The notes: a model not told the origin generated them from the letters alone. A stretch of 64,000 bases of DNA from Rhabdothermincola sediminis (GCF_014805525.1 NZ_JACFSZ010000001.1:62001-126000); one strand, 5' to 3'. Counted from the first letter of the stretch, positions 48,035-56,877 are shown. A program made the numbers and translations.

Positions 48035-49006
48035 GTGCCCACGGTGCTCGTCACCCGTCGCTTACCGCCGCCGGGCACCGCGGCGTTGCGCGACGCAGGG
48101 GTGGAGGTCCGGGAGTCACCCTCCGACGCCCCCCTGGACCGTGGCGAGCTGCTGGTTGGGGTGCGCGACGTGGACGCCCTGCTGTGCATGCTCACCGACC
48201 GGGTCGACGCGGAGGTCTTCGATGCCGCGCCGTCGCTGTCGATCGTCGCCAACTTCGCGGTGGGGTTCGACAACGTCGACGTGGCCGAGGCCGCGCGACG
48301 GGGGATCGTGGTCACCAACACCCCCGACGTCCTCACCGAGGCCACCGCGGATCTCGCCTGGGCGCTGCTGCTCGCGGCGGCTCGGCGGGTCGGCGAGGGC
48401 GATCGACTGGTGCGCACCGGGAGCTGGACCGGCTGGAGCCCCACCCAGCTGCTCGGGGCCCCGGTCCACGGCGCCACCCTGGGCATCGTCGGGCTGGGGC
48501 GGATCGGCACCGCGGTGGCCCGCCGGGCCCGGGGATTCGACATGGACGTCTGCTACACCAGCCGGCGGCGCCACGAGGCGGCGGAGGCCGAGACAGGGGC
48601 CCGGTACGTGACGCTCGGGGAGCTGCTGCGCACCAGCGACGTGGTCTCGCTGCACGCCCCCCTGGGCGAGACCACTCGTCACCTCATCGACGAGGCCGCG
48701 CTCGGTTCCATGAAGCCCACGGCCGTGCTCGTGAACACCGCCCGAGGGGCGCTGGTCGACGAAGATGCCCTGGTGCGGGCGCTGCGGGACGGGACGATCG
48801 CTGCTGCCGGTCTCGACGTGTTCGAGCACGAGCCGGCGCTGGCGGCAGGCCTGCGGGATCTGCCGAACGTGGTGCTCGCCCCGCACATCGGCTCGGCGAC
48901 CACCCAGGCCCGGGCGGCGATGGTCAAGCTGTGCTGCGAGAACATCGTCAGGGTGCTCGCCGGCCGCCCCCCGCTGACGCCGGTGCGCCCCGAGGCCACC
49001 GGATGA
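48035..49006 (+). CDS. D-2-hydroxyacid dehydrogenase, glyoxylate/hydroxypyruvate reductase type
   Basis: A 323-residue NAD(P)-dependent enzyme. The dinucleotide loop is GIVGLGRIGTAVARR, followed by the arginines of YTSRRRHE (suggesting NADP preference is possible). Catalytic Arg is in VNTARGALVDE, Glu in DVFEHEP, and His in LAPHIGSAT. It reduces glyoxylate or hydroxypyruvate to glycolate or glycerate. The GTG at 48035 matches the family start (PTVLVTRRLPPPG). It follows the importer operon by 25 bases on the same strand and overlaps the next gene (ATGA). Confidence 0.92.
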   Translation: MPTVLVTRRLPPPGTAALRDAGVEVRESPSDAPLDRGELLVGVRDVDALLCMLTDRVDAEVFDAAPSLSIVANFAVGFDNVDVAEAARRGIVVTNTPDVLTEATADLAWALLLAAARRVGEGDRLVRTGSWTGWSPTQLLGAPVHGATLGIVGLGRIGTAVARRARGFDMDVCYTSRRRHEAAEAETGARYVTLGELLRTSDVVSLHAPLGETTRHLIDEAALGSMKPTAVLVNTARGALVDEDALVRALRDGTIAAAGLDVFEHEPALAAGLRDLPNVVLAPHIGSATTQARAAMVKLCCENIVRVLAGRPPLTPVRPEATG

Positions 49007-50025
49007 GCGAGGCACCGGCGCCGGCCGGCAACCCGCTGGGGGTGATGGTCCCGCAGCTGTTCTGCGGCCCGGGCAACGACGGGTCGACCCTCCGTGGCGC
49101 GGTCGCCGCCGACTACCTGGTGCCCCATCTGGCCCGGTTGCCCGGCGAAGGGTTCGGCGCGGTCGAGTTGGCCCGCATGCACGGGCGAGCGTTGCGGGCG
49201 CGGGTGGCCGAGGCCGTCGCCGGGCTCGACGTCACCTTCGGGGCGTACGTGACCCAGTTGCTGAACGTGGAGCGTCTGCACCCGTTCGACCTGTCGCACC
49301 CCGAGGAGCGCGAGCGCCGGCGGGCCGTCGAGCGCCTCCGGGTCTGCCTGCGTGAAGCCGAGCAGCTCGCCGCCCGGCGGGTGGGGGTGATGTCGGGCCG
49401 GGACCCGCTGCTGGCCGGCGAGGCGCCCGGCTCGCCGGCCCGCGCCCGGCCGCCGGCCGGGGGTGACGATCTGCGGGCCCGGCACCGTGATGCCCTGGTG
49501 CGCTCACTGGTGGAGCTGGCGGGGGAGACGGCGCTCGACGTGGTCGTGATGGCCTTCGATCGCCAACCCTCACCGGCGGCGGTGCCGGGCGCGTACAAGG
49601 GGGCCTTGCTCGGGCCGGTGGACGAGGTGGTCGAGGTGGTGGCTCGGGCTCGGGACCAGGGGGCCACGAACGTATGGGTCGCGCTCGACACGGCACACCT
49701 CCGCGAGAACGGTGAGGGCCCGCGCGAGCTGGCCGGTGCGGTGGGCCTGCTGGGGCTGCTCCACGTCTCGAACTGTGTGGTCGACCCTGGTGCACCCGAT
49801 GCCGCCGCTCGCCTGGGTGACCGTCACCCTGCCTTCGGTTGCCCCGGTTCAGCGGTAGATGCGGCCACGCTCGCGGGGTGCGCCCGAGCCATCGCCGGGC
49901 GGTACCAGGGTCCGGTGACCTTCGAGATCCGTCCCGTCGGCGACGAGGACCCCTGGGTGCTGCTCGGCCAGGCTCGTGCTGCCTGGGAGGCGGCGGTGAG
50001 GACGGTGGCCGCCGGGTCGTCCTGA
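49003..50025 (+). CDS. sugar phosphate isomerase/epimerase-like TIM barrel protein
   Basis: A 340-residue AP endonuclease 2/xylose isomerase-like TIM barrel. Family features are LPGEGFGAVELARMHGRALR near the N-terminus, the middle segment VMAFDRQPSPAAVPGAYKGALLGP, the metal-site-like VWVALDTAHLRENG and VTFEIRPVGDED near the end. Substrate and reaction cannot be told. Overlap with the hydroxyacid dehydrogenase gene suggests a shared pathway for a small sugar acid or related compound. It ends eight bases from the convergent photoreceptor gene. Confidence 0.75.
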   Translation: MSEAPAPAGNPLGVMVPQLFCGPGNDGSTLRGAVAADYLVPHLARLPGEGFGAVELARMHGRALRARVAEAVAGLDVTFGAYVTQLLNVERLHPFDLSHPEERERRRAVERLRVCLREAEQLAARRVGVMSGRDPLLAGEAPGSPARARPPAGGDDLRARHRDALVRSLVELAGETALDVVVMAFDRQPSPAAVPGAYKGALLGPVDEVVEVVARARDQGATNVWVALDTAHLRENGEGPRELAGAVGLLGLLHVSNCVVDPGAPDAAARLGDRHPAFGCPGSAVDAATLAGCARAIAGRYQGPVTFEIRPVGDEDPWVLLGQARAAWEAAVRTVAAGSS

Positions 50026-50032
50026 GGTCCGC

Positions 50033-50884
50033 TCACGCCGGCTGGTCACGACCCGGCCGGTTCCGCTGCTGGGCGAGCTGGTCGAACAGCTCGACCGCCT
50101 CGGGCGCCGACGCGCTGTGGTGGTCCGCTCCCAGCTGGCGTGCCCGGGCGGGCGTAGGTACGGCGGCCCCACCGAGGACGATCGGCGCCAAGCCCTGATC
50201 GCGCACCGCGGCGACCGCGGAGCGGATCCCGTCGTCGTTGCCGGTGCGCGTCGCCGCGATGCCCACGGCCACCAGCCGCTCGGCGTGTTCGGCGGCATCG
50301 GTGAAGGACTCCGCGGGTGTGTCCGCACCGAGGTCGATCACCGAGAAGCCCCGGGAGCGGAGCAGGTCGGCGACCAGGGCGGAGGGGATGCCGTGGTGGT
50401 CGCCGGGCGGTGCGCCCAGCACCACCGTGCCCCGGGTGCGGCCCCGGCGACGGAACAGGGGGCCGAGCCGGCCGATGAGCCGGAGCACGACCGCGGAGGC
50501 CTGGTGCTCCTGGGCGACGCTGATCGTTCCCGCGGCCCAGTCATCTCCGATGGCCGCGAGCGCGGGGGCGATGAGGTCGAGATACAGCTCCTCGGCGGGC
50601 ATCCCCGCGGCCAGCGCGTCCTGCAGCACGATCCACGCGCCTGGTTCGTCCGCGACCACTAGGCGGCCCGCGAGCCGCCGGGGGTAGTCGCGCCGGCGGG
50701 AGGCGCGACCGCTCGGCGCTTCTCGCGGTCGGCCCAGCCGGCGCACGTCGCTGGGGTCGACCAGCCAGATCCCGTCGGCCTTGCTGGCCGGCAGCCGGCC
50801 GGTGCGCACGTAGCGGTAGGCCGTCATGTAGTGGACGCCGAGCCGGCGGGCGGCCTCTTCGAGGGTGATGGGCGGTTCGCTCAC
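50033..50884 (-). CDS. B12-dependent photoreceptor-type transcriptional regulator (CarH/LitR-like)
   Basis: A 283-residue regulator. The N-terminal helix-turn-helix (TLEEAARRLGVHYMTAYRYV, about residues 7-45) is MerR/excisionase-like. The middle helical bundle carries W116 followed by nine residues and E126-H127 (WAAGTISVAQEH), the W-x9-EH signature of the light-sensing CarH/LitR cap domain. The C-terminal Rossmann B12-binding domain holds the D-x-H motif with His164 as likely cobalt ligand (GDHHG) and GFSVIDLGADTP. In known members the dark adenosylcobalamin tetramer represses carotenoid genes and light breaks the Co-C bond. It is encoded next to the carotenoid genes and divergent to fni. 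Confidence 0.9.
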   Translation of the reverse strand: MSEPPITLEEAARRLGVHYMTAYRYVRTGRLPASKADGIWLVDPSDVRRLGRPREAPSGRASRRRDYPRRLAGRLVVADEPGAWIVLQDALAAGMPAEELYLDLIAPALAAIGDDWAAGTISVAQEHQASAVVLRLIGRLGPLFRRRGRTRGTVVLGAPPGDHHGIPSALVADLLRSRGFSVIDLGADTPAESFTDAAEHAERLVAVGIAATRTGNDDGIRSAVAAVRDQGLAPIVLGGAAVPTPARARQLGADHHSASAPEAVELFDQLAQQRNRPGRDQPA

Positions 50885-50916
50885 CCAGGTCTCATTCGTG
50901 CAGACACCCGATACAG

Positions 50917-50928
50917 TTTAGCGCTAAA
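50917..50928. promoter_or_regulatory. palindromic operator TTTAGCGCTAAA in the photoreceptor/fni intergenic region
   Basis: A perfect 12-bp palindrome lies in the only AT-rich patch of this region, between the divergent regulator and fni genes. An almost identical site (TTTAGCACTAAA) sits upstream of crtE at 55596-55607. Sharing between both edges of the carotenoid block marks it as the likely binding site of the B12 photoreceptor, with autoregulation. The match is direct; the binding is inferred. Confidence 0.7.
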
Positions 50929-50951
50929 TCAGGCCCCCATGAGGAGCTGCG

Positions 50952-52058
50952 ATGGGCACCACCAACCCCAGTCCGACCGCTCGAGTCGTCGAAGCCCGCA
51001 AGGCTCACCACCTGGCGCTGGCACTGAGCTCCGGCTCGCAGTCGGCCCTGGACCCGGGTTGGGACGACGTGCATCTCGTGCCGGCTTCGCTACCCGAGCT
51101 GTCGCTCGACGAGATCGATCTCTCGACCACCCTCTTGGGGCACCGCCTGGCGGCGCCGGTGGTGCTCGCACCGATGACGGGCGGGTATCCCGATGCCTCG
51201 CGGGTCAACGCGGTGCTGGGCGAGGCCGCGGAACATCTCGGGTTGGCGGTGGGCGTGGGCAGTCAGCGGGCCGCGCTGCTCGCGACCGAACTTGTCCCCA
51301 CCTACACCGCGGTGCGGGCCCGGGCGGCAACGGCGCCGGTCTTCGCCAACATCGGGGCATGCCAGCTGGTCGATCAACCCGGGTCGCCGGCGCTCGGGCG
51401 GGACGAGATCCTACGGGTCATCGAGATGGTGCGCGCCGACGTGCTCACCGTTCACCTCAACGTCGTGCAGGAGCTGCTCCAGCCCGAGGGCGATCGCCGC
51501 ACTGACTCGCTCGCCCGGGCGATCGCCGCCGTCGTGGACTGGTCGCCCGTGCCGGTGCTGGTGAAGGAGACCGGTGCGGGGATGACGCGAGAGTCGGCCG
51601 GCCTTCTCGCTGCCGCCGGCGTGGCCGCCTTGGACGTCGGGGGCGCGGGTGGCACCAGCTTCGCCCGGATCGAGGGTGCCCGAGCAGCGCGAGCCGGAGA
51701 TGACCGCCGAGCGGAGCTAGGCCGGGTCTTCGCCGATTGGGGGCTGCCGACCGCGGCATCGGTGTTCGAGGTCCGTGGCACCGGCCTGCCGGTGGTGGCC
51801 ACCGGCGGGGTCCGGACCGGTCTCGACGCGGCTAAAGCGTTGGCGATCGGCGCGGTGGTGGTCGGCGTGGGCCGGGTGGCGATCAGAGCGGCGGTGCGCG
51901 GCACCGAGGAGCTGGTGGCGCGACTCGAGCAGCTGCTGGATGAGTTGCGGCTGGCGATGTTGTTGACCGGTTCCCGCACGCCGGCCGATCTGCGCCGATC
52001 CCCTCCGGTGCTGACCGGCTTCACCTCGGAGTGGGTCCGCCAACGGGCTCTGTGCTGA
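50952..52058 (+). CDS. fni: type 2 isopentenyl-diphosphate delta-isomerase
   Basis: A 368-residue FMN- and NADPH-dependent enzyme converting IPP to DMAPP, the starter for carotenoid chains. Family signatures: PVVLAPMTGGYPDASRVN, LAVGVGSQRAAL, VHLNVVQELLQPEGDR, VLVKETGAGMTRESAGLLAAAGVAALDVGGAGGTSFARIE and VVATGGVRTGLDAAKALAIGA. The start ATG is at 50952 with GAGGAG about five bases upstream. Its 3' end overlaps the convergent crtB by 38 bases. It is the first gene on this side of the carotenoid block and lies behind the TTTAGCGCTAAA site. Confidence 0.95.
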   Translation: MGTTNPSPTARVVEARKAHHLALALSSGSQSALDPGWDDVHLVPASLPELSLDEIDLSTTLLGHRLAAPVVLAPMTGGYPDASRVNAVLGEAAEHLGLAVGVGSQRAALLATELVPTYTAVRARAATAPVFANIGACQLVDQPGSPALGRDEILRVIEMVRADVLTVHLNVVQELLQPEGDRRTDSLARAIAAVVDWSPVPVLVKETGAGMTRESAGLLAAAGVAALDVGGAGGTSFARIEGARAARAGDDRRAELGRVFADWGLPTAASVFEVRGTGLPVVATGGVRTGLDAAKALAIGAVVVGVGRVAIRAAVRGTEELVARLEQLLDELRLAMLLTGSRTPADLRRSPPVLTGFTSEWVRQRALC

Positions 52059-52923
52059 CCACCGCCGTGGTGGGCCACCGCGAGACGAGCAACGCCCGAG
52101 CCACCGCTACCGCCTTGCGGGCCGCCGGGACCCGAGCCCGCATGCTGAATACGTCGTAGCCATTGCGCTCGATCTCGCGGAGGATTCCCCCGTAGAGCGT
52201 GCTGGCGGTGGCGATGCAGCGCGCCGACGAGGGCGGCAGGAACGCGATGCCCCGCTCCGCCTCGGCGTAGAGGGCGCGGGCCCGTTCGATCTCGAAGCGC
52301 ATGAGCGCCACCCACGCCGGGTCGACCCGCCGCCGGGCCGGGTCCGCGCCGAAGGCCCGCAGATCCTCCTGGGGGAGATAGACCCGACCCCGGTCGAGGT
52401 CCTCGCCCACGTCCCGGAGGAAGTTGGTGAGCTGGAACGCCTCGCCCAGCGCGCGGGCGGGGCGGACGGCCGCGGTGCCCGACGGCTCGAGCAGTGGGAG
52501 CATCATCTCACCGATGACCGACGCCGAGCCGTCCATGTAGTCCTGTAGGTCGGCGTACGTCTCGTACCGCTCGACGGTCAGGTCCATGGCCATCGAGCGC
52601 AGGAAGCGGCGGAAGAGGTCGGCGTCGATGTCGAACGCGTGCACGGTGTGCACCACCGCCTTGAGGACGGGGTGCTCAGAGCGGCCGGCGGCCAGATCGG
52701 CGAAGAAGTGTTCGGCGAGCCGGTCGAGGGCGGCTCGCCGGTCATCGACCGAACGCCAGCCGGGCGCGTCCACGATCTCGTCCGCGAACCGGCAGAAGGC
52801 GTACAGCGCCCACACGTGGTGGCGCTTGACCGCGGGCAGCACGAAACCGGCCCAGTAGTAGGTGGTGCCGTGCCGGCGGTTCAGGTCCCGGCACACGGCG
52901 TAGGACTGCTCGAGGGTGATCAT
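52021..52923 (-). CDS. crtB: phytoene synthase
   Basis: A 300-residue trans-isoprenyl synthase joining two geranylgeranyl diphosphates into phytoene. The first Asp-rich motif is YAFCRFADEIVDA and the second QLTNFLRDVGEDLDRGRVYLPQEDL, both intact. The start ATG at 52923 overlaps the crtI stop, so crtE-crtI-crtB form one operon on the minus strand. The length is that of bacterial CrtB. A squalene-synthase-like alternative is unlikely because of the crtI neighbour. Confidence 0.95.
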   Translation of the reverse strand: MITLEQSYAVCRDLNRRHGTTYYWAGFVLPAVKRHHVWALYAFCRFADEIVDAPGWRSVDDRRAALDRLAEHFFADLAAGRSEHPVLKAVVHTVHAFDIDADLFRRFLRSMAMDLTVERYETYADLQDYMDGSASVIGEMMLPLLEPSGTAAVRPARALGEAFQLTNFLRDVGEDLDRGRVYLPQEDLRAFGADPARRRVDPAWVALMRFEIERARALYAEAERGIAFLPPSSARCIATASTLYGGILREIERNGYDVFSMRARVPAARKAVAVARALLVSRWPTTAVVSTEPVGGPTPR

Positions 52924-54410
52924 CGGCGCCCCGACGCTTCGAGGGCCGACACCCGCCGGGCAGCCAGCTTGCCCGACAGCAACACCATCGGCACGCCCAC
53001 CCCGGGCACCGTCCCGGAGCCGCTGAAGACCAGGCCCGGCGCTCGCCGGTCGACGTTCGGGGGCCGGAACGGGCCGGTCTGGAAGAAGGCGTGCGAGAGC
53101 GCGAACGGCGTGCCCCGCTCGAGGCCCTGCCGCTCCCAGTCGAGCGGGTCGACCAGTGCCTCGACCTCCACGTCGGTGGGGTAGCCCAGCGTCGCGAGCC
53201 GCTCGTAGAGGCCGTCCCGCACCCGTGATCGCTCACGGAGCCAGTCGATGCGCCCGTCGAGGTTGGGAACCGGCTCAAGCACATAGAGAGTGTGACGTTC
53301 CGGTGGGGCCATCGCGGGGTCGTCGCGGGTGGGGATGGTCACCAACATCGACGGGTCGGGCATCCGGGTCCCGTCTTCGAGCAGGGCCCGGAACGCACCG
53401 GCCCACTGCCGGCCGAAGTGGATGTTGTGGTGGGCGGCGCCGACCGGGAGCTCGCCGCGCACGCCCACGTGCCACACGACGCACGAGGGCGAATAGGTGC
53501 CCCTGCGGGTGACCCGGGGAGGGGCGAGGCCCGGCAGCAGGGTGCGGTAGGCGACGGGTAGGTCGGCGTTGCAGACCACCGCGTCGACCCGGAGGATCTC
53601 GCCGTCGTCGAGGCGCACGCCGCGCACCGGACCGCTGCTGCCGTGCGCCAGCAGGATGCGCTCGACCCCGGTGCGGTAGTGGAAGGTCACGCCGGCCTTC
53701 TCGGCGGCGGCGGCGAGGGCGGCGGGGAGCGCGTGCATGCCGCCTTCGGGCACGTAGACCCCGGCCACGGTGTCCATGTAGGTGATGACGCCGTAGAGCG
53801 CCAGGGCCTCGTAAGGCGCGAGCCCCGCGTACATGGACTGGAAGCCGAAGACCCGGTGCAGGCGCTCGTCGCCGAAGAACTGCTCCAGCTTGCTGGCGAG
53901 GCGGCGGAAGCCGCCCAGGCGGGCCAACTGCACGCCGGCCCGCAGCGGCCGAGCCAGGTCCAGCACCGAGTCGTAGTTCCGGTCGATGAAGTGCGGAAGC
54001 TCGACATCGTGGAGCGCGGTCAGCCAGTCGCAGAACCGGTGGAAGGCCGCGGCCTCGCGGGGCCCGCAGACCTCGTCGATCTCGGCTGCCATGGCTTCGC
54101 GCCCATGGCGCACATGCAGCACCGTACCGTCGGCGAATGAGGCCAGGTACATGGGATCGACCCTCCGGAAGGACACGAAGTCGGGGCGGCTCAGCCCGAC
54201 GGCGTCGAAGCACTCGTCGGCGAGCTCGGGCATGGTGAGCACCGTCGGTCCGGTGTCGAACTGGTAGCCATCGATGATCAGGCGACCGGCTCGCCCCCCG
54301 GGGGTGTCGCCCCGTTCGAGGACCGTCACCTGGTGGCCGGCGCCCGCGAGGTGGCAGGCAGCCGACAGCCCGCCCAGGCCGGCCCCGACGATCGCGACCC
54401 GCATCGTCAA
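52920..54410 (-). CDS. crtI: phytoene desaturase (CrtI type)
   Basis: A 496-residue FAD enzyme that desaturates phytoene to lycopene. The N-terminal dinucleotide fold is VAIVGAGLGGLSAACHLAGAGHQVTVLERG with PGGRAG after it, and the C-terminal FAD motif is VFSGSGTVPGVGVPMVLLSGKLAA. Length and both motifs match CrtI of actinobacteria. The start overlaps the crtE stop; either ATG at 54410 or ATG at 54404 could be used. It is central in the crtE-crtI-crtB operon. Confidence 0.95.
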   Translation of the reverse strand: MTMRVAIVGAGLGGLSAACHLAGAGHQVTVLERGDTPGGRAGRLIIDGYQFDTGPTVLTMPELADECFDAVGLSRPDFVSFRRVDPMYLASFADGTVLHVRHGREAMAAEIDEVCGPREAAAFHRFCDWLTALHDVELPHFIDRNYDSVLDLARPLRAGVQLARLGGFRRLASKLEQFFGDERLHRVFGFQSMYAGLAPYEALALYGVITYMDTVAGVYVPEGGMHALPAALAAAAEKAGVTFHYRTGVERILLAHGSSGPVRGVRLDDGEILRVDAVVCNADLPVAYRTLLPGLAPPRVTRRGTYSPSCVVWHVGVRGELPVGAAHHNIHFGRQWAGAFRALLEDGTRMPDPSMLVTIPTRDDPAMAPPERHTLYVLEPVPNLDGRIDWLRERSRVRDGLYERLATLGYPTDVEVEALVDPLDWERQGLERGTPFALSHAFFQTGPFRPPNVDRRAPGLVFSGSGTVPGVGVPMVLLSGKLAARRVSALEASGRR

Positions 54411-55534
54411 TGCTCCCGGTGCACGACGAAGGCCGCGGCCTCGGTGAGGGATCGGGCCGCGTGGGGCGGGAGCGAGTCGATGGCGAGGGCCCGGACCGCG
54501 TCGCCGGCGAGCCGCTCGATGCGCTCCTCGATCGCCTCCACGGCGCCGGTCCGGATCAAGGCCGCCTGGATGTCCGCCACGGCGGCGTCGTCGAGGCCCG
54601 GCGCACCGGCCGTCTCGAGCACCTGCCGGTCATGGGCGCTGGCCCGCTCCAGGGCGAGGGCGAGCAGCGGCGTGGGCTTGCCGTCGCGCAGGTCCGCGCC
54701 CACCGGTTTGCCGACGGTGTCGGGCTGCCCGAAGGCGCCGAGTAGATCGTCGCGCAGCTGGAACGCCAGCCCGAGCGCCCGGCCATAGGTGCTGAGTGCG
54801 TGGTGGATCGGGAACGGTGCTTCGGCCAGCGTGGCGCCGATCCGCAACGGCCACTCGATGGTGTAGCGGGCGGACTTCAGCACGGCGATGCGCTCCGCTT
54901 GCGCGACGCCGGGGCGGCCGTGGGCGGTGCGCAGGACGTCGAGGTACTGGCCCATCATCAGTTCCGCCTGCATCTCCCGCCACAGCGGCTGCACGACCGG
55001 GGGGAGCTTGCCGGCGAGGTGCTCCGCCCAGGCGTGCGCGAGGTCACCGATCAGGATGGCGACGCTCTCCCCGAACCGGCGGCTCTCACCCCGGGCGCGC
55101 AGGAGCTGGTGCTGGGCTTCGAAGCGCACGTGCGTGGTGGTCCGGCCGCGGCGGGTGAACGAGCCATCCATCACGTCGTCGTGGATCAGGGCGAAGGCGT
55201 GCAGCAGCTCGAGCGCCGCACCCGCATCGTCGAGCTGCTCGCGTCCGGGAGAGGCGTCGGGATCGGCCCCACCGGCCTCGAAGCCGAGCCGGCAGAAGGC
55301 CGGGCGTAGGCGCTTGCCGCCGGCGAGGACCGCGTCCGAGAGTGCTTCGAGGGGTGCGGCGAGGTCGGGGTCGAGCGCGGTCCAGCGCGCGTACTGGTCG
55401 GCGAGGAAGCGGCCGAGGTGCTCGTCGATCCTCGCTCCGGCGTACCGGATGGCGGCCGGAGCGGCGACCGGAGCAGCGACCGGCCGGGCACTCCCGGATG
55501 GGAGAACGGGAGGTTGGGTAAAGGTGAGGGTCAC
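54407..55534 (-). CDS. crtE: geranylgeranyl diphosphate synthase
   Basis: A 375-residue prenyltransferase extending FPP or DMAPP to C20. The first Asp-rich motif is FALIHDDVMDGSFTRRG and the second FQLRDDLLGAFG. The GTG at 55534 was chosen because AAGGA lies about eight bases upstream and the extra upstream residues in frame are not conserved. An Ala/Pro-rich 30-residue leader precedes the family core. It is the first gene of the minus-strand operon and carries the TTTAGCACTAAA site 62-73 bp upstream of its start. Confidence 0.93.
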   Translation of the reverse strand: MTLTFTQPPVLPSGSARPVAAPVAAPAAIRYAGARIDEHLGRFLADQYARWTALDPDLAAPLEALSDAVLAGGKRLRPAFCRLGFEAGGADPDASPGREQLDDAGAALELLHAFALIHDDVMDGSFTRRGRTTTHVRFEAQHQLLRARGESRRFGESVAILIGDLAHAWAEHLAGKLPPVVQPLWREMQAELMMGQYLDVLRTAHGRPGVAQAERIAVLKSARYTIEWPLRIGATLAEAPFPIHHALSTYGRALGLAFQLRDDLLGAFGQPDTVGKPVGADLRDGKPTPLLALALERASAHDRQVLETAGAPGLDDAAVADIQAALIRTGAVEAIEERIERLAGDAVRALAIDSLPPHAARSLTEAAAFVVHREH

Positions 55535-55595
55535 AGGTGGTCCTTCGCAGTTGCGGGCCGGTGCCCGGAGTGCAGGCCGGTTGGCGCTGCACGTA

Positions 55596-55607
55596 TTTAG
55601 CACTAAA
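55596..55607. promoter_or_regulatory. palindromic operator TTTAGCACTAAA between crtE and crtYc
   Basis: A 12-bp palindrome with one mismatch, nearly identical to the site at 50917-50928. It lies in the divergent control region that drives crtEIB to the left and crtYc-crtYd-crtZ to the right, so one protein could control both operons. The flanking CTAG and TATTTAG sequences are AT-rich and may be part of promoter elements. Confidence 0.7.
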
Positions 55608-55677
55608 CTCTAGCCCGGACGCTCCGCAGTCCCACCCCCGGAGGGCAGGAAATCCACCCTCGACCAGACCATCGACC

Positions 55678-56073
55678 ATGGACCGCTTCCAGTACCTCGC
55701 CCTGATGGGTCTGTGCCTCGCGCTGACCCTCCCTCTCGAGTTCGCCTTCCGGGCCCGGGTCTACCGGCGCCCCCGGCGGCTGCTGCGGACGCTGGCGCCC
55801 GTGGTCGGTGTCTTCTACGTCTGGGACGCGGTGGCGATCGCCCGCGGGCACTGGTGGTTCGACCGGCGGTACGTGACCGGGGTCGAGCTCCCGCTCGGGG
55901 TGCCGCTGGAGGAGCTGGTGTTCTTCGTGGCCATCCCCCTGTGCGCGCTCCTGACCTTCGAAGCCGTACGCAACCTGCTGGAAGGGACGGCGCCACGTGA
56001 TCGGCGGGGCGAGCACTCGATCGAGGCGGCCAGCGCGGGCGCCGATCTCTCGGGAGGGCGGGGCGGTGGCTGA
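55678..56073 (+). CDS. crtYc: lycopene cyclase domain protein, CrtYc-type subunit
   Basis: A 131-residue membrane protein with three helices. The catalytic-type motif PLEELVFFVAIPL is present. In actinobacteria CrtYc and CrtYd together form the heterodimeric lycopene cyclase that makes beta or gamma end groups. The ATG at 55678 begins MDRFQYLALMG, as in the family. Its stop lies inside the start of the next gene, crtYd, an eight-base overlap, showing coupling. Confidence 0.88.
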   Translation: MDRFQYLALMGLCLALTLPLEFAFRARVYRRPRRLLRTLAPVVGVFYVWDAVAIARGHWWFDRRYVTGVELPLGVPLEELVFFVAIPLCALLTFEAVRNLLEGTAPRDRRGEHSIEAASAGADLSGGRGGG

Positions 56074-56389
56074 GTACACGGCGCTCGCCGTCACCGCGGT
56101 GGTCGCGATCGTGGCCCTCGAGCTCGCCGTGCTGCGCACCGGACTGTTCCGCCGACCCGCCTACTGGGTGACCATCGGCATCTGCGCGGCGTTCATGGTG
56201 CCGGTCAACGGGTGGCTGACCAAGCTGTCGGCCCCCATCGTGTGGTACTCGCCGGCGATGCGCACCGGCTGGCGCTTCCCGCTGGACATCCCCGTCGAGG
56301 ACTTCGCGTTCGGCTTCGCCCTGCTCACCCTGGTGCTCCTGTCGTGGTGGCGAGCCGGCATCCAGGGATCGACCGAGGATCGGCCGTGA
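56066..56389 (+). CDS. crtYd: lycopene cyclase domain protein, CrtYd-type subunit
   Basis: A 107-residue membrane protein with three helices and the conserved acidic motif PVEDFAFGFALL that pairs with PLEE of CrtYc. The GTG at 56066 (VAEYTALAV) was chosen because a GC-rich GGGAGGGCGGGG tract precedes it and the first helix follows at once. It overlaps both neighbours, so the three genes are translated as a unit. Confidence 0.87.
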   Translation: MAEYTALAVTAVVAIVALELAVLRTGLFRRPAYWVTIGICAAFMVPVNGWLTKLSAPIVWYSPAMRTGWRFPLDIPVEDFAFGFALLTLVLLSWWRAGIQGSTEDRP

Positions 56390-56877
56390 GCCCCGGGTGG
56401 TCGTTCGCGGCCATCGCCCTGCTGGCCTTCGCCGTGATGGAGCCGATCACCTACGCCGTGCATCGCTGGGTGATGCACGGGCCGGGGATGGCGTGGCATG
56501 CGAGCCATCACCGGGCTCGCCGCGGGCGGTTCGAGCGAAACGACCTGTTCCCCGTGTGCTTCGGTCTGCTCACGGTCGCCGTCCTCATCGCGGGGAAGGC
56601 TGTGCCCGCTCTGGCGGTGCTCCTGCCGGTAGGAGCCGGCATCACGGCCTACGGAGTGGCGTACCTCGTCGTGCACGACCTCTACGCCCATCGCCGGTTC
56701 GTGCGGCTCCCCCGAGGGCTCCCCGTGCTCGAGCGGCTGGCCGCGGCCCACCGGGTGCACCACCGAAGCTCCGGGGAGCCGTACGGGTTCCTGGTGCCGT
56801 TCAGGTCGTTCAGGGCCGGAGCGTCGGCAGCAACGGCACGGCGAGTGACGGCTCGCGATCGTGCCGGCCGGGACTAG
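56386..56877 (+). CDS. crtZ: beta-carotene hydroxylase (CrtZ-type, sterol desaturase superfamily)
   Basis: A 163-residue membrane enzyme with four histidine clusters typical of diiron hydroxylases: HRWVMHG, HASHHRAR, HDLYAHRR and HRVHHR. It hydroxylates beta-ionone rings to give zeaxanthin from beta-carotene. The start GTG at 56386 overlaps the crtYd stop codon (GTGA). The C-terminal 15 residues are arginine/alanine-rich and unconserved. Together with the neighbours, zeaxanthin-like xanthophylls are the predicted product. Confidence 0.9.
   Translation: MSPGWSFAAIALLAFAVMEPITYAVHRWVMHGPGMAWHASHHRARRGRFERNDLFPVCFGLLTVAVLIAGKAVPALAVLLPVGAGITAYGVAYLVVHDLYAHRRFVRLPRGLPVLERLAAAHRVHHRSSGEPYGFLVPFRSFRAGASAATARRVTARDRAGRD

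Follow-up and report, generated by a model that had tools for sequence, protein, structure and literature searches.

A probable B12-photosensor regulator with a DNA-binding domain of the excisionase type and its likely palindromic operator at the carotenoid genes of Rhabdothermincola sediminis

Introduction

Which kind of regulator controls the carotenoid genes of Rhabdothermincola sediminis, and through which operator? The question is raised by a stretch of 64,000 nucleotides (GCF_014805525.1, NZ_JACFSZ010000001.1:62001-126000, in the following called the window and counted from its first letter), in which a regulator gene lies next to fni and to a crt gene cluster and a 12-bp palindrome is found twice (Table 1). 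A preliminary description had linked the protein to CarH/LitR, the MerR-type photoreceptors (class I) that use adenosylcobalamin (AdoCbl) and repress crt genes, and had proposed a light-controlled regulon with a shared operator. Here we arrive at a modified picture, to which we give a probability of roughly 0.7, namely that a B12 photosensor regulator resembling CarH, but equipped with a DNA-binding domain of the excisionase type, acts through the palindromic operator on light-responsive genes.

Results and Discussion

The regulator protein

To take the sensor half first, the W-x9-EH cap and the D-x-H cobalt-ligand motif described before were verified as W116-x9-E126-H127, together with G113-x-x-W116, and as D162-H-H164-G-I-P167, which together with G238-G239 fits the B12-binding motif D/ExHx2G/P ... 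GG. All four marks of light-responsive cobalamin domains that are proposed and partly tested in one study (PMC11796333) are present: GxxW as GDDW, EH, GxxH as GDHH and GxxxP as GADTP (L185-G-A-D-T-P190). Among 33 aligned orthologs G113, W116, E126, H127 and H164 are invariant, and most orthologs carry the four signatures together. The N-terminal half belongs to HTH_17 (PF12728, 39.4 bits, cut-off 27) and also passes the excisionase profile TIGR01764 (29.8 bits, cut-off 28.8); HTH_17 was found in 33/33 orthologs and MerR in 1/33, with the recognition helix residues H18, Y19, M20, T21, Y23 and R27 being mostly invariant. A search of the regulator for the RxWERRY recognition helix of the MerR type found none. 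In the AlphaFold model (mean predicted local distance difference test score 93.4) the N-terminus folds as a small winged helix, with helices at 8-15 and 19-27, then a wing of two strands and helix 44-51; a disordered linker connects it to the four-helix bundle, which precedes the Rossmann domain, and the chain stops about 8 residues past the final helix of the B12 domain. The domain make-up and the conservation of the sensor residues are therewith established.

Foldseek matches of the model include photocobilins such as SasPcob, the B12 photoreceptor CtMerR from Chloracidobacterium thermophilum (PDB 8jbs/8jbt) and full-length CarH, which aligns over 280-295 columns. Ranked by profile, the solved sensor relatives are SasPcob (125.8 bits), CtMerR (107 bits, the second-best group), then AbDPcob, methionine synthase and CarH (77.8 bits); SasPcob, CtMerR and CarH are AdoCbl proteins that respond to light. 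By profile and fold the closest sensor domain is that of the photocobilins SasPcob and AbDPcob (PDB 8j2w, 8j2y). These show an AdoCbl-based light response (PMC10979010), but carry a biliverdin-binding globin-like domain at their C-terminus and lack a DNA-binding domain, whereas our regulator has neither a bilin nor an enzyme domain. CtMerR shares the light-response signatures and differs in its MerR-family DNA-binding domain.

With CarH/LitR the regulator has in common the Wx9EH cap, the DxH-type B12-binding domain, the location of its gene beside crt genes and a photo-protective regulon. In contrast, the DNA-binding domain of CarH/LitR is of the MerR type, whereas the one found here is HTH_17/excisionase-type and has no MerR match; the CarH operator consists of tandem 11-bp direct repeats nnnnTnnACAn (PMC9304148) instead of a 12-bp palindrome; and the NCBIfam CarH equivalog NF052513 reaches 75.8 bits, which is under its cut-off of 400. 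On these three counts, MerR domain, direct-repeat operator and NCBIfam cut-off, we do not file the protein as CarH. From the proposed family link the B12-photosensor signatures were kept, while the DNA-binding half had to be reassigned.

The operator and its occurrence in relatives

Both near-identical palindromes could be located again, and they are the sole exact matches of TTTAGYRCTAAA in the 3.29 Mb genome, both lying in promoters of the crt cluster. Likewise TTTAGCNCTAAA has no occurrence in the genome beyond these two sites, a reversed control pattern gave 0 matches in the same 3.29 Mb, and about 0.0005 matches per genome are expected by chance (order-3 Markov model of the window, 72% guanine plus cytosine). 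That the operator is unlike that of Thermus CarH was borne out, as no TnnACA repeat of the CarH type is present on either strand in 50860-50975 and 55500-55700.

At the order level we sampled 198 genomes of relatives labelled Acidimicrobiales, 39 with a clear regulator ortholog and 159 without one. The exact motif was present in 23/39 regulator-positive and in 14/159 regulator-negative genomes (Fisher p 9e-11, an optimistic value because the genomes are related), and several of the inspected matches in regulator-negative genomes sit within open reading frames. Near 80 regulator loci from named public genomes, mostly titled Acidimicrobiales, Acidimicrobiia, Microthrixaceae and Ilumatobacteraceae, we counted 23 exact and 35 one-mismatch sites, the reversed control giving 0 and 2. 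The palindrome was found again next to distant orthologs of 38-50% identity, an outcome by which the earlier proposal could have been refuted and was not. In the promoter of the regulator gene of two relatives (G180 and G216) the symmetric variant TTCAGCACTGAA occurs, in which both arms are altered together. Tandem site pairs with a spacing of 16-21 bp are frequent (L036, L041, L047, L049, L050 and others), a few being spaced by 32-34 bp, and represent an arrangement that an oligomeric protein might use. A class-wide motif scan added nothing to the association, the AT-rich small genomes being too noisy.

Within the family (37 genomes) the regulator is found in 33 genomes and in 12/12 genera, and one whiB-like gene has a conserved site in its upstream region. 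As had been asked of related intergenic regions, the motif is conserved there: in an alignment of 22 family whiB upstream regions conservation is essentially confined to the palindrome. The co-occurrence of operator and regulator is established by these data.

The regulators can be divided by their recognition helix. Subfamily A (HYMTAYRYVR) has a site within 1.5 kb at 11/38 loci and subfamily B (HYQTAYRWVR) at 0/14 loci, and reading the upstream regions of subfamily B by eye, with no statistical search, revealed no obvious shared palindrome. In subfamily B (L072, L074-L078, L080-L087) Wx9EH is kept in 13/14 members, and the neighbours in several genomes are housekeeping genes (ppdK, dnaG, an rpoD-like sigma gene, glyS, recO, uppS); these proteins are perhaps B12-sensor regulators with another site and role. 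At L054, L056, L065, L068, L070, L071 and L073 the cap is degenerate with loss of Wx9EH and the DNA-binding domain is intact or nearly so, and these orthologs may be light-blind counterparts, as CarA is to CarH.

The predicted regulon

The genes that recur behind the site are operons of an FAD (flavin adenine dinucleotide) oxidoreductase (COG2907-like), DUF1365 and a cyclopropane-fatty-acid (CFA) synthase, as well as an operon of whiB, regulator, a Nei-type glycosylase and ferrochelatase with an adjoining glutaredoxin gene. A separate whiB with a site is divergent from a uroporphyrinogen methylase/HemD gene; the whiB ortholog of R. sediminis has no site. A glycosyltransferase gene follows the site in two family members, in one of them (G221) followed by the carotenoid acyltransferase CrtO and in the other (G223) alone, so that a connection to carotenoids is seen independently at the CrtO locus and, with the glycosyltransferase alone, at the second one. 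An exact site precedes a gene for a secreted DUF4397 protein in G222. In R. sediminis a one-mismatch site, TTTAGCACTAAC, lies directly upstream of a secreted DUF4397 protein gene (G000:C2:154292-154303; L204 1501-1512), and judged from these sequences this protein is a probable third regulon target in the genome.

The identities of the target genes are established, and as a set they are consistent with a response to photo-oxidative stress. In Vibrio cholerae light induces a CFA synthase gene (PMC5241685), and the class II LitR regulons of Pseudomonas with a light-inducible photolyase and fatty-acid-modifying enzymes (UfaM) (PMC9758184) are comparable to the CFA-synthase operons found here, although class II LitR, unlike our regulator, has a MerR-type DNA-binding domain, the sites TGTACA/TRTACA and a sensor half without B12 binding. 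Comparative genomics upholds the earlier idea of a shared operator for a photo-protective regulon, but not a conserved control of crt genes, as discussed below.

The carotenoid gene cluster

The gene names fni and crt given before were upheld by Pfam and TIGR profile matches (Table 1). The two palindromes had been said to bracket the whole set; they do enclose fni and crtE-crtI-crtB, whereas crtYc-crtYd-crtZ lies beyond operator 2. The real start of crtI is probably the ATG at 54404. For crtE, its sequence makes the GTG at 55534 the more likely start than that of the longest open reading frame at 55603, and with this start operator 2 is intergenic, while the longest frame would cross it. A candidate crtYc promoter was read by eye, and operator 2 would overlap the end of its spacer and most of its -10 element. 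Downstream of the regulator, at 49000-50025 of the window, a gene for a xylose-isomerase-like TIM-barrel protein (PF01261) is located.

Table 1. Regulator, operators and carotenoid genes in the window of R. sediminis (positions from its first letter; residues for protein domains).
Feature	Position	Strand	Evidence	Remark
Regulator gene	50033..50884	-	Open reading frame call; Pfam PF12728, PF02607, PF02310	
Regulator domain 1, HTH_17/excisionase-type DNA-binding domain	residues 7-49		PF12728 (HTH_17)	
Regulator domain 2, four-helix cap with Wx9EH	residues 70-139		PF02607 (B12-binding_2)	
Regulator domain 3, Rossmann B12-binding domain with DxH	residues 153-255		PF02310 (B12-binding), 46.9 bits	
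Operator 1, TTTAGCGCTAAA	50917..50928			Perfect palindrome; divergent regulator/fni promoter, 32 bp upstream of regulator GTG, 23 bp upstream of fni ATG
fni, type 2 isopentenyl-diphosphate isomerase	50952..52058	+	TIGR02151, 351.6 bits (cut-off 281.3)	
crtB, phytoene synthase family	52021..52923	-	PF00494 (SQS_PSY), 7.9e-76	
crtI, phytoene desaturase family	52920..54410	-	TIGR02734, 436.9 bits	
crtE, geranylgeranyl diphosphate synthase-like	54407..55534	-	PF00348 (polyprenyl_synt), 1.6e-48	
Candidate crtYc promoter, TTGGCG-17 bp-TAAACT	55581..55609	+	Read by eye; under consensus-scan threshold	Suggestive only
Operator 2, TTTAGCACTAAA	55596..55607			Between crtE (61 bp off) and crtYc (70 bp off)
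crtYc, heterodimeric lycopene cyclase subunit	55678..56073	+	TIGR03462, 72.8 bits	
crtYd, heterodimeric lycopene cyclase subunit	56066..56389	+	TIGR03462, 61.1 bits	
crtZ-like carotenoid hydroxylase	56386..56877	+	PF04116 (FA_hydroxylase), 45.2 bits	

Proposed mechanism and alternatives

From this we infer that the regulator binds B12 and the DNA directly, that light is its signal and that it represses rather than activates. The sensor half would be of the light-responsive CarH/photocobilin type and the DNA-binding half a short excisionase-type winged helix. By analogy with CarH, the AdoCbl-bound protein would assemble in the dark and sit on TTTAGYRCTAAA, and the occupied palindromes over or beside the promoters of the regulator gene, fni, crtE-crtI-crtB and crtYc-crtYd-crtZ would keep these genes off. 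In the light the Co-C bond would break, the operator would be freed and carotenoid synthesis would be switched on, while in relatives the same regulator-palindrome pair would control other photo-oxidative-stress genes. The genome encodes an ATP:cobalamin adenosyltransferase, which allows AdoCbl to be formed from a corrinoid; an RNA-family scan of the window found no cobalamin riboswitch and no other RNA family, except one tRNA.

Several observations weigh against this reading. The same fni-crtBIE-crtYcYdZ cluster has no site with up to 2 mismatches in two family members (G180 and G095), in both of which the regulator gene is unlinked to the crt cluster, and the crt control therefore looks lineage-specific. 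At the same threshold six other crt loci showed no motif, and the link of the site to crtBIE/crtYcYdZ is seen in R. sediminis only, whose genus contains no other genome. A regulator-adjacent site is also missing in many orthologs, family members included. A scan for sigma-70 consensus promoters at both operators found nothing, which makes the repressor geometry a guess. Finally, the cap Trp is followed by Ala (A117), whereas this position is His132 in Thermus CarH, and a Thermus-type bis-His light state thus cannot form. According to the study cited above (PMC11796333), the H132A mutant of Thermus CarH is unable to monomerise in light, and CtMerR has Arg and likewise no His at this position. 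Given the defect of the mutant and A117 in our protein, a light switch, should there be one, has to follow another mechanism, perhaps that of CtMerR, a protein which shows that an alternative route to the light state without His132 exists.

The lack of the His132 equivalent also favours the best of the alternatives, that the regulator does bind the palindrome but responds to B12 (AdoCbl) status or redox state instead of light. The domain family has light-independent cobalamin proteins, with MetH and corrinoid proteins nearly as similar to the sensor, and several members of the family have the site between whiB and a gene for a tetrapyrrole methylase/uroporphyrinogen-III synthase. However, neither the Wx9EH cap nor the adenosyl-pocket signatures vary, and the targets (carotenoids, CFA synthase, ferrochelatase, Nei, whiB, CrtO) point to photo-oxidative stress and not to B12 metabolism, so that we regard this alternative as unlikely. 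Somewhat less likely still is that both sites are real and crt control is activation in light rather than derepression. The promoters have no consensus -35, and known excisionase-type proteins include architectural co-factors, but at several promoters the site overlaps the likely -10 or sits just downstream of it, which fits repression better than activation. That the palindrome is owned by another regulator sharing the regulon (e.g. LacI-, MarR- or WhiB-associated) appears very improbable to us, even though a gapless 12-bp palindrome is more usual for other regulator families than for MerR-type proteins and 16/39 regulator-positive genomes have no exact site, since the presence/absence association, the autoregulatory site positions and the coincidence of site loss with the changed recognition helix of subfamily B stand against it and no regulator gene was seen to recur by the sites except whiB, which lies behind the site as one of the targets. 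The same association disfavours the Fur/IscR-like or other regulator that had been considered before.

Conclusion

In summary, the evidence for a CarH-like photosensor regulator working through TTTAGYRCTAAA leads us to favour, on balance, a separate lineage of B12-photoreceptor transcription factors that is widespread in Acidimicrobiia. These factors would combine a sensor of the CarH type with an excisionase-type DNA-binding domain and work through a class-wide gapless palindrome; their regulon would link pigment, membrane lipid, porphyrin (ferrochelatase), DNA repair and WhiB control with one another and would have been rewired onto carotenoid synthesis in the lineage of R. sediminis. A search of the open-access literature yielded no paper in which excisionase-type regulators are brought together with light sensing by cobalamin. 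If true, B12 photoreceptors would gain a second type of DNA-binding head with a short, well-defined operator. With the operator defined, the regulon could be predicted by sequence alone in many metagenome-assembled genomes, and possible uses lie in following how uncultured actinobacteria of freshwater and soil respond to light and in a gene switch for green light that has a compact site. The predicted regulon includes ferrochelatase, which removes the photosensitiser protoporphyrin, and it would then appear that light-sensor domains can be plugged onto a new DNA-binding domain while the photo-oxidative regulon is retained.

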